NCBI GenBank assembly: GCA_012519845.1 | Contig: JAAYPK010000119.1 | Span: 1-64,000, forward strand | Direction of reading: 5' to 3' | DNA length: 64,000 nt | Source: Clostridiales bacterium | GTDB taxonomy: Bacteria; Bacillota; Clostridia; Clostridiales; Clostridiaceae | Shown here: positions 29,804-59,450 of the stretch, piece by piece | Layout: each line of letters opens with the position of its first letter | Numbering within the stretch: position 1 is the first letter of the stretch | Program-made: the position numbers and the translations under genes | The notes under the pieces: generated by a model | Databases searched by the model: none | What the model was told of the DNA's origin: nothing | Seen by the model: only the letters and a program-made list of their open reading frames with translations

Positions 29804-30019
29804 ATGGAGTATATATTAACATTAAGTTTTTTATGTAGCAATAATACTAAATCTTCTATTTCTATAGAAGGTGCAAATAAAATGTTATCTTCTGAGGAAG
29901 TAACTACCCTTATGGATACAATAATTGAAAAGAATATTTTCAAAAGTAAAAATGGAAGCTTTATTAAAAAAGCTGGTGCTGTTTTAACTCAAAAAGCTGT
30001 TTCTAAGTTTACTGTATAA
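29804..30019 (+). CDS. DUF2922-family small protein
   Basis: MEYILTLSFLCSNNTKSSISIEGANKMLSSEEVTTLMDTIIEKNIFKSKNGSF. Confidence 0.82.
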   Translation: MEYILTLSFLCSNNTKSSISIEGANKMLSSEEVTTLMDTIIEKNIFKSKNGSFIKKAGAVLTQKAVSKFTV

Positions 30020-30349
30020 ATAAAGAAGTCCTACAAATTGATTAATTTCATTTTGTAGGACTTCTTTATTTAGATTTAACCTAAAAGCCACTTTCCGAAG
30101 CTGCTTTTTTATAGAAGTAAATTTCTGAAGAATAAATTGAAGGACTTCTTCATTTACTTCTGTTTCATCTAAATTAACTGCAATATAAGAACTTGTAGAA
30201 GGTTTATTGATTTGAAGTATGTCTTCCTCTAGTTTTTTCGTTAATTCTTCTTGGCTATTTAAAGAATCTAAATGTTCAATCCAAATTTCTCCACCTCTAA
30301 AATATAATGAGAAGGACTTTTTCTTTATTCCTGATTTACTTTTTACCAT
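29984..30349 (-). CDS. Uncharacterised protein; 3' end overlaps the DUF2922 gene antisense
   Basis: ORF coupled to the upstream ORF (ATG at 30349 inside its last codons). Confidence 0.6.
   Translation of the reverse strand: MVKSKSGIKKKSFSLYFRGGEIWIEHLDSLNSQEELTKKLEEDILQINKPSTSSYIAVNLDETEVNEEVLQFILQKFTSIKKQLRKVAFRLNLNKEVLQNEINQFVGLLYLYSKLRNSFLS
30018..30071. terminator. 20-bp stem AAATAAAGAAGTCCTACAAA/TTTGTAGGACTTCTTTATTT, inside the coding end of the minus-strand ORF
   Basis: Perfect inverted repeat directly after the DUF2922 stop. Confidence 0.75.
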
Positions 30350-31343: not shown

Positions 31344-31454
31344 CTATATATTGATTTTGTAAATAGTTTGTTGAATTGGTATAAAAATTGTAATAAACTA
31401 AAGATAAATCAGTACAAATTAGCAATTCTTTATAAATTCTAAGGGGGAATTTTA

Positions 31455-32078
31455 ATGGAAAATAATAAAATGACATGTGCAGACTGTGCCGTAATTAATT
31501 GTTCTGAGCAAAATAAAAGCTATCCATCATTTTGCTTGACCACTCATATGGATGAAGAAATTAAAAATGAAGCTTTAGACTTAATTAAAAATGAAGAAAA
31601 TCAAAAAGTAATGCATACGGCTGCAAATGTTGAACGGATAGGATATTTAAAATGGTGTCGTGTAGAGGAAACTATTGAATTTGCAAAAAGAATGGGATAT
31701 AAAAAGATAGGCATAGCTACCTGTGTCGGCTTAATTTCAGAAACAAGAACTTTAGCAAAAATATTAAGAAGTCATGGTTTTGAAGTATATGGAGTTGCAT
31801 GTAAAGTAGGAGCTATTCCTAAAACTGATGTAGGAATTGATAAAGCTTGCTTAGAGGTTGGGGTAAATACATGTAACCCAATTTTACAAGCAAAAATATT
31901 AAATAAAGAAAAAACTGATTTAAATATTGTTATGGGCTTATGTGTAGGACATGATAGCCTATTTTATAAATATTCAGAGGCTCTTGTAACTACATTAGTA
32001 GCTAAGGATAGAGTCATGGGACATAATCCTGTTGCAGCGATATATACAGCAAATTCATACTATAGTAAATTAAAGTAA
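31455..32078 (+). CDS. DUF1847-family Cys-rich protein
   Basis: MTCADCAVINCSEQNKSYPSFCLT; GVACKVGAIPKTDVGI. Confidence 0.85.
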   Translation: MENNKMTCADCAVINCSEQNKSYPSFCLTTHMDEEIKNEALDLIKNEENQKVMHTAANVERIGYLKWCRVEETIEFAKRMGYKKIGIATCVGLISETRTLAKILRSHGFEVYGVACKVGAIPKTDVGIDKACLEVGVNTCNPILQAKILNKEKTDLNIVMGLCVGHDSLFYKYSEALVTTLVAKDRVMGHNPVAAIYTANSYYSKLK

Positions 32079-33097: not shown

Positions 33098-33131
33098 TTG
33101 TCATAATAATGTCATATTATTAGGCTATAAT
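33098..33131 (+). promoter_or_regulatory. Pho-box-like promoter: TTGTCATAATAATGTCAT, 10 nt, TATAAT
   Basis: 11-bp-spaced direct TGTCAT repeats directly upstream of a -10 box. Confidence 0.5.
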
Positions 33132-33137
33132 AAAGTC

Positions 33138-33243
33138 ATAAAGTAAATCAAAATAAATTTTTCATTTTGAACCCCTTAATAATATAATCATCCCCCTAAG
33201 ATGGTTATACCCAAGGAATCCCCCTTCCTTGGGTCTTTTTTTA
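33138..33243 (+). ncRNA. Candidate sRNA 1 (about 105 nt), C-rich motifs, terminator loop UCCCCC
   Basis: Promoter, no ORF, intrinsic terminator ACCCAAGGAA-TCCCCC-TTCCTTGGGT then T-run. Confidence 0.5.
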
Positions 33244-33244
33244 T

Positions 33245-34393
33245 TTATGATAATTGTTCCTTTTTCTTTATGTAAACATTTTTGGCATATCCCATCAATT
33301 CCCGTTCCCCCTGCATTTCACTATTATATGGATATTTTCTTGCAAATTTTTCAAATGCTTTATACTGCATTTCTGCTGCCTTTTCATCATTATTATAAAG
33401 CAATTCATAAGCATACATTATTCTTATAAATGATGGATACTTTTTTAAAGATTTTCCTACCTTTTTAACTTCTGCAGTAAACATAGCATCAATTTTTTCC
33501 TTAGAGTTATCACCTATAAGCTCTAAATAGATCCTTTCAAAAGTCAATATATACTTGTAAATAGGAACCAAATTATTAGAATTCTTCATAAGCTCTTCTG
33601 AAATTTCCCTAGCCAATTGGAAATTTTCATCATCAATGGCTCTGTTAAAAGCCAAAACTGCCATTGTATTACAAAGACTATTTTTCATATCCTCATTACT
33701 AGGTATTTCAAACCATTCATCAGGCATATCTTTTAATCTAAGGCCTTTAGATATCCTTGCATTTATTTCTAATTGTAACCAAAAACTCCATTTAGCCCTT
33801 TCATTCTTGCTAATATTTAAAGTGTTACTTCCATCATTATCTACAGGTCCAAAATGTATTGGCAATCCATTTGTAATTGCAAAAAATGTACCTAATATAG
33901 CCATAAAAAGAAATAGTATGGACAACACCTTATAATCTTTCATTACAAAAAATAATATTATTGAAATTATTGATACTATAATATTGGCTATAATGCCCCC
34001 TAAATTATATAAAACAAAAGGCATATTCTCATTATATGGTTTTGGCAGTGCCATAAGGCATTGTCCTGCAGTTCCCATTAATGAAAATCTTTTTATTTGT
34101 AGCTTTCCTTCTTTTTTAAAGAACATAAAGCTTCCTACTCTAAAGGACACAAACTCATAACCACTAATTAAACCAAATATTAAATGTCCTGATTCATGGA
34201 CTATAATCTGAACAAAAATGGATAGATATAGAATTATCATAATACCAAATATCCAAATTATACATTCTTCTAATGAAGTACTATTATTCATTGCTACCTT
34301 CATACCAAATGCTCCACATATTCCTCCAATTATCATAAAAAATATCATAAATATAGTGGAACCAATTTTTGATTTTTTCTTTTCTTTTTCCAT
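33245..34393 (-). CDS. M50-family (site-2-protease-like) membrane metallopeptidase
   Basis: IVHESGHLIFGLISG (HExxH) and NGLPIHFGPVDNDG second motif. Confidence 0.8.
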   Translation of the reverse strand: MEKEKKKSKIGSTIFMIFFMIIGGICGAFGMKVAMNNSTSLEECIIWIFGIMIILYLSIFVQIIVHESGHLIFGLISGYEFVSFRVGSFMFFKKEGKLQIKRFSLMGTAGQCLMALPKPYNENMPFVLYNLGGIIANIIVSIISIILFFVMKDYKVLSILFLFMAILGTFFAITNGLPIHFGPVDNDGSNTLNISKNERAKWSFWLQLEINARISKGLRLKDMPDEWFEIPSNEDMKNSLCNTMAVLAFNRAIDDENFQLAREISEELMKNSNNLVPIYKYILTFERIYLELIGDNSKEKIDAMFTAEVKKVGKSLKKYPSFIRIMYAYELLYNNDEKAAEMQYKAFEKFARKYPYNSEMQGERELMGYAKNVYIKKKEQLS

Positions 34394-34433
34394 TCCTTAA
34401 ATTCCCCTAACTTTTTTATAATTTATTATCCTT

Positions 34434-34467
34434 TTGACATACTAATGACATATTATATACATATAAT
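34434..34467 (+). promoter_or_regulatory. Pho-box-like promoter copy 2: TTGACATACTAATGACAT, 10 nt, TATAAT
   Basis: Same spacing and architecture as 33098-33131. Confidence 0.5.
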
Positions 34468-34473
34468 AAAAAT

Positions 34474-34557
34474 ATAGATAAGATATATTTATCATTTTAT
34501 TCCCCAATATTAATAATAATATAATAAATGCAAGGTTTGTCCCCCATTCCTTGCATT
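34474..34557 (+). ncRNA. Candidate sRNA 2 (about 85 nt), C-rich motifs, loop containing GUCCCCC
   Basis: Homologous layout to 33138-33243; hairpin AATGCAAGG-TTTGTCCCCCATT-CCTTGCATT. Confidence 0.45.
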
Positions 34558-34617
34558 AATTATATTTCTATAACTTTATCTAAATCTTTAGCTTAAGTTC
34601 TCTAATGATTCTTACCT

Positions 34618-59254: not shown

Positions 59255-59450
59255 AAAAGCTTATTAATTACATAAAAATAGACTCTCTATCCGTTCAAGC
59301 TTTAGCTTCATAGGGCAATGAAATTGCATTAAAATACGCCTTAATTCTCGACGTATTCTGCTAACCTTCTCATAGTGTCTCCACTACTCTGCGGCAGCAA
59401 CCCGTATCCCTATGGTAACCTCACCTACCGATTTTTATTCAATTGTATAT
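59255..59450 (-). ncRNA. M-box (ykoK-leader) Mg2+ riboswitch aptamer
   Basis: Minus-strand GGTAGGTGAGGTTACCATAGGGATACGGGTTGCTGCCGCAGAGTAGTGGAGACACTA, upstream of a terminator and a Mg2+ ATPase gene. Confidence 0.85.

Follow-up and report, generated by a model that had tools for sequence, protein, structure and literature searches.

What does the ORF-free interval at 33098-33243 of this 64,000-nt stretch of clostridial DNA (the window) encode, and what controls it? A sequence-only reading had described a C-rich anti-Shine-Dalgarno (anti-SD) sRNA gene behind a promoter resembling a Pho box. The elements it listed (box, 10-nt gap, TATAAT, ORF-free stretch, C-runs, terminator with a TCCCCC loop) are all in the sequence (Table 1). 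The TGTCAT hexamers of the box, at 33099-33104 and 33110-33115, are in 11-bp phase, and sequence reading of the promoter finds no -35 element at the usual spacing. The PWM box is common to the sRNAs of the genus and to htrA upstream regions. Downstream lie the C-runs AACCCCTT (33172-33175) and ATCCCCCTA (33192-33196) and the terminator stem ACCCAAGGAA/TTCCTTGGGT (33209-33234), which encloses the loop TCCCCC and is followed by CTTTTTTT.

The predicted RNA, hereafter sRNA 1, forms three hairpins when folded, a weak one at the 5' end, one in the middle and that of the terminator, and leaves three C-runs unpaired; none of 200 shuffled sequences is equally stable. ORFs of 30 aa or longer do not start within it, the closest being a 66-aa ORF that begins in the terminator. 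The middle hairpin and the CAT at 33163-33165 had no place in the sequence-only reading. The linker from this CAT to the following C-run is the antisense of GGGG-6 nt-AUG, combining an anti-SD with an anti-start codon, and the antisense reaches ATGAAAAATTT. A terminator scanner reported one terminator-like site against 0.9 expected by chance; the terminator of sRNA 1 is thus not significant by itself, while the composite of elements and its conservation are.

Table 1. Features of the two sRNA genes in the window.
Feature	Position	Strand	Basis
sRNA 1 regulator box, TGTCAT-N5-TGTCAT	33099..33115	+	direct sequence reading, PWM
sRNA 1 -10 element, TATAAT	33126..33131	+	10 nt 3' of box
sRNA 1 predicted transcript, ~105 nt	33138..33243	+	fold z -4.3; congener ortholog
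sRNA 1 linker, CAT-TTTGAA-CCCC	33163..33175	+	sequence, CAT spacing statistics, TIR-vs-decoy test
sRNA 1 middle hairpin, CCCC exposed in loop (CCCCTAA)	33183..33209	+	folding
sRNA 1 intrinsic terminator, 10-bp stem, TCCCCC loop, T-run	33209..33243	+	sequence, terminator scan, fold
sRNA 2 regulator box, TGACAT-N5-TGACAT	34435..34451	+	sequence reading
sRNA 2 -10 element, TATAAT	34462..34467	+	sequence reading
sRNA 2 predicted transcript	34474..34560	+	sequence, fold; G006 tandem ortholog, same loop

A second copy of the same family, sRNA 2, occupies 34432-34560 on the same strand. Its promoter is 79% like that of sRNA 1 across 39 nt, and its body carries a CAT (34493-34495), a CCCC run (34502-34505) and a terminator stem (34527-34535/34549-34557) whose loop contains TCCCCC, alike in kind to the loop of sRNA 1, with a weak T tail. 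The ortholog of sRNA 1 in the congener G006 is locus L007. Between the two window copies lies a weakly scoring M50-type metallopeptidase gene (33245-34393, minus strand, below the Pfam cut-off), which ends 2 nt past the sRNA 1 T-run and whose start is some 40 nt away from the box of sRNA 2; G006 has both sRNAs side by side without it. Elsewhere in the window, a strong inverted repeat, TAAATAAAGAAGTCCTACAAATTGA/TCATTTTGTAGGACTTCTTTATTTA, with an extra partial copy 60 nt further (30017-30072 and 30134-30156), looks like duplicated terminators.

Searching the 2.94-Mb genome for the box followed by TANNAT returned six matches, and none in the reversed control. Five stand 5' of a C-rich stem-loop RNA; the sixth lies inside dxr and was taken as chance. 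Besides the two window copies, these five comprise L055 in the tatD-metG gap, L056 on contig C103 and the short, atypical L054 on C48, giving a family of four to five copies in this genome. L055 and L056 fold with z-scores of -5.2 and -7.8 and expose their C-runs.

Comparison across genomes suggests that sRNA 1 belongs to a paralogous family of RNAs of about 70-115 nt, presumably acting in trans, and that this multi-copy family, previously uncatalogued, extends across Clostridium sensu stricto. The strict pattern of box, -10 element and CCCC has matches in 15 of the 68 congeners scanned, with no reversed match; box plus TANNAT occurs in 59 of the 68 (two reversed matches), most of which then carry the core GTAAAGTAGTTAAAGCATTATTA. 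Recurring box matches of the form TGACATAGTAGTGACATCTGT..GGTATGATAGG sit in the dxr coding sequence and were dropped as chance. In the 6.5-Mb congener G072, the strict and box/-10 scans combined, with the dxr match excluded, give about 11 candidate loci.

When the 32-nt core alone was used as a query, without the promoter, 43 loci were recovered in named genomes, nearly all of them named Clostridium (beijerinckii, tertium, paraputrificum, celatum, neonatale, sartagoforme and others). Because these loci were picked by their RNA, the box upstream of 43/43 (PWM 20-37), with a -10 element 6-7 nt 5' of the core, gives the promoter a test that does not depend on the query. metG adjoins in convergent orientation at every one of these loci. 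Compensatory changes affect 11 of 14 predicted stem pairs among 26 core-type sequences, a count confined to the metG-linked subset since the MAFFT alignment of all subtypes was too gappy mid-sequence for pair counting. Support for the family comes from pattern, synteny and alifold evidence. Members fold with z-scores from -3.5 to -9.8, their C-runs unpaired, and the terminator-type stems are of 56 distinct kinds, with CCC kept in 51 of 63 loops. Of the outcomes that the sequence-only reading had named as refuting it, lack of conservation in related genomes does not occur: promoter, C-runs and terminator are all kept there. Whole-element DNA matches (L002, L003) were set aside as chance AT-rich similarity. 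Core-type queries found no match in phage and plasmid records, so mobile carriage is not indicated.

Other Clostridiaceae genera also contain matches to box, -10 element and CCCC, with no reversed match in 226 genomes, and these appear to be looser relatives. Among the eight other genera whose matches were examined, six have RNAs built alike whose stems are unrelated, for example AGCAGTTGG with TCCCCC in the loop; in one genus the box matches (L317, L318) stand before a protein gene instead. Tandem sRNA copies lie beside metG in two genomes of one other genus. L327 (G225:C1), a locus likewise outside Clostridium, consists of three tandem copies adjoining metG, two of them with identical promoter and core.

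The sRNA box also lies upstream of htrA in 30 of 30 congener loci, our genome included, where it reads TGACATATTATTGCCATAATAAGCCTATATAAT and is placed 41 nt 5' of the start. This link was first noticed among box matches without an sRNA and was then tested on 30 fetched loci; in each of the 18 loci that were compared with shuffles in the correct orientation, none of 200 shuffles matched the observed score. The htrA product has trypsin and PDZ domains. The PWM consensus of the shared box is TGWCAY-N5-TGWCAY, and its other occurrences were single cases (an MCP, a WYL regulator, a cytochrome-b5 lipoprotein and a GH28 gene).

Because the box looks like an E. coli Pho box, the upstream regions of pstS were tested as well. 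If it were bound by PhoP/PhoB and the sRNA made at low phosphate, as the sequence-only reading had proposed, the resemblance to the E. coli PhoB box, whose geometry is the same, would be explained, and so would a family copy (L107, G020:C141) that lies about 110 bp upstream of pstS in divergent orientation. However, the box is found upstream of pstS in none of 30 congeners, our genome included, the best full PWM score being below 0 in all. These regions carry instead a conserved 11-bp-phased TTAACA/TAATAT array that ends near TATATTAT, and the sRNA box precedes htrA throughout. Control by phosphate is therefore very unlikely, and the look-alike is, on this comparison, most probably not a Pho box; the G020 copy leaves a small opening for a phosphate link. 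The L107 copy has a PAS/HAMP histidine kinase gene on its other side. A conserved clostridial Pho-type box, a TTAACATNNCTCTAATATAACTTAACATNTCTCTAATAATNGATTAACTAAAWGGGTATATTAT-like array, was observed upstream of pstS at L057 (G000:C61:35935).

The geometry of the repeat indicates that the putative regulator is probably of the OmpR family. Our genome encodes 16 OmpR-family regulators; a strong box precedes none of the 16, no autoregulated two-component genes were found, and NCBIfam models named none of the regulators. The most suggestive candidate is the system encoded by the genus-conserved prs-RR-HK-(HtrA-like protease)-pth operon (G000:C18), which would sense the state of the envelope, a tentative refinement of the explanation favoured below and not an exclusive alternative to it. 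Its RR, HK and HtrA-like genes occur together in 10/10 genomes examined, with an identical recognition-helix region (DSRTVDVH[IV]KRLREK) in all ten, and the operon encodes a second HtrA-like protein, of the PDZ type. Against it, no box lies upstream of the operon, and its conservation is not unique, other OmpR systems being conserved too.

Read in antisense, the linkers resemble translation starts: GGGGTTCAAAATGAAAAATTT for sRNA 1, GGGGAATAAAATGATAAA for sRNA 2, GGGGTAAATAATAATG for the genus core and GGGGTAAATATTTATGAAAAAA for the second subtype. Each is antisense to an SD and spacer, usually to the AUG too. In 41 of 54 members a CAT precedes the first CCC by 4-12 nt, compared with 4.7 in shuffles (maximum 11); with identical linkers collapsed, this holds for 15 of 28 compared with 2.6 (maximum 8), and 13 of the 28 distinct linkers lack CAT. 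In a sample of 416 genes of our genome, the sRNA 1 linker pairs more strongly than -16 kcal/mol with 51 translation initiation regions (TIRs) versus 5 internal-ATG decoys, and separates the two with an AUC of 0.82, shuffled linkers reaching at most 0.70. For some copies the reversed linker also favours TIRs, so part of the TIR signal is plain pairing of a C-run with an SD. The likely mode of action, as far as these comparisons go, is combined anti-SD and anti-AUG pairing. One of the best pairing sites in the sample is a gene start near sRNA 1 (31442-31457, plus strand, AAGGGGGAATTTTAATGG; -18.8 kcal/mol).

In the genus, most of the recurrent TIR matches stand before genes for exported or membrane proteins (MCP, OppA, lipoproteins). 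Among the 416 genes of our own genome, sRNA 1 shows a weak bias towards signal-like starts (AUC 0.58, p 0.02) that exceeds all 20 shuffles, and the other own-genome copies show none in this sample. Targeting of exported proteins is a lead. Conservation and the bias towards TIRs support the essence of the sequence-only reading, a C-rich anti-SD sRNA, putatively trans-acting, with a promoter of the activator type that has an OmpR-style direct repeat.

Two other views of the RNA were weighed against the same data. Repeated, exposed C-runs are what sponge RNAs display, and the C-runs could sequester a protein, or some other RNA, instead of base-pairing with mRNA starts; such a decoy, however, needs neither a CAU at SD-like spacing nor a preference for TIRs over decoys, and we consider it highly improbable. 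The gene could instead lie on the opposite strand; the antisense of the linker would then supply the true SD and ATG of a small peptide, with the C-rich RNA as a mere shadow or a type I antitoxin. Some copies do read GGGG-spacer-ATG in antisense, followed by a short open frame. But the antisense frame of the invariant core is ATG CTT TAA, that of sRNA 1 is ATG AAA AAT TTA TTT TGA, and the type-2 frames shift among relatives, while it is the C-rich strand that carries the conserved promoter, the covarying stems and the terminator; a gene on the opposite strand is extremely improbable.

The explanation we favour, and consider quite probable, is a stress regulon in which htrA and multi-copy anti-TIR sRNAs would be placed under a putative OmpR-family regulator. 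It builds on the established gene anatomy, conservation, stem covariation, common htrA box and anti-TIR bias. Extracytoplasmic stress, of the envelope or of protein folding, would activate the response regulator, which would bind TGWCAY-N5-TGWCAY 10 nt 5' of the -10 element and switch on htrA and every sRNA copy together. In the RNAs, unpaired C-runs would be presented in the linker, often in the middle hairpin loop, and in the terminator loop, the loops being likely sites of first contact. Because the linker is antisense to the translation initiation region (a GGGG SD, a spacer of 6-9 nt and usually the AUG), the sRNAs would pair with the SD-to-start regions of mRNAs and block ribosome binding. 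Transcription, the identity of the regulator, the inducing stress, translational repression and the targets are the inferred parts of this scheme.

Judged from the genomes compared, the family is real, conserved and new; the sequence-only reading spotted the C-rich anti-SD character correctly and was wrong in its attribution to phosphate. It had suggested an Rfam search, and at gathering score Rfam 15 matches neither sRNA 1 nor sRNA 2, the sole match in the window being an M-box (ykoK) magnesium riboswitch at 59278-59439 (minus strand, 98 bits). No description of the family was found in Rfam 15 or in the main texts of the papers searched, among them a C. acetobutylicum survey that is silent on metG and tatD, on C-rich motifs and on two-component control. 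Resemblance to a known design limits the novelty, as does the confinement of the comparison with earlier clostridial surveys to main text. The result provides Clostridium, a large genus whose solvent producers include C. beijerinckii, with a conserved, htrA-linked sRNA system of multiple copies, and the box motif can be used to find further family members and the regulon.

By function, the closest known systems are the csRNAs of Streptococcus and LhrC of Listeria. The CiaR-controlled csRNAs have a hexamer-N5-hexamer box 10 nt from the -10 element, a terminator, and htrA in their regulon (PMC3091779); their unpaired region is complementary to SD and AUG, with CAU in 53/61, and their box is NTTAAG-N5-TTTAAG (PMC3091779, PMC8186281). 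Like them, the clostridial sRNAs are multi-copy, related, similar in length and in some cases tandem, and have an OmpR-type direct repeat 10 nt 5' of the -10 element of a terminator-ended RNA, an unpaired anti-SD with CAU in the proportions given above, and an htrA gene with the same box. The csRNA features recur one after another except for the box sequence and the regulator. Unlike csRNAs, the clostridial RNAs have the box TGWCAY-N5-TGWCAY and extra C-rich sites, one in the loop of the terminator and often one in that of the middle hairpin, and they come from another bacterial class, with no sequence match found.

Listeria LhrC1-5 (RF00616) are multi-copy, LisRK-controlled and provided with three UCCC sites, and their LisR-responsive region lies further upstream, beyond -53 (PMC4132741). 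The folds of sRNA 1, L056 and L043 likewise present three C-rich sites (loop, single strand and terminator loop); however, the LhrC Rfam model scores sRNA 1 at 20.1 bits against a gathering score of 110, and the clostridial box stands 10 nt from the -10 element. The analogy with RsaE/RoxS drawn in the sequence-only reading holds for the C-rich unpaired motifs masking SD sites, which FsrA and IsrR of the Bacillales share; there is no Rfam match to these RNAs, they are not multi-copy under an htrA box, and csRNAs and LhrC are closer analogues. By the tests made, the clostridial sRNAs would work like csRNAs and LhrC and appear homologous to neither.

In E. coli, the sigmaE regulon includes degP and MicA/RybB, so that an envelope-stress regulator raises both the HtrA/DegP protease and translation-lowering sRNAs. 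The clostridial system resembles this in its logic of protease plus sRNAs and differs in regulator class, RNAs and bacteria. A broader and rather doubtful reading is that one envelope-stress two-component system, present throughout the clostridial genus, raises HtrA and, alongside it, as many as about 11 sRNAs. These would serve as general antisense versions of translation start sites and damp the synthesis of exported proteins; if true, the circuit would be the Gram-positive equivalent of sigmaE with MicA/RybB in its logic, and would have arisen separately from csRNAs and LhrC. The family is apparently the third case, after streptococci and Listeria, of a design that combines a two-component box, htrA and anti-SD/anti-AUG sRNA paralogs, and this third appearance makes the convergence of stress-sRNA circuits testable.
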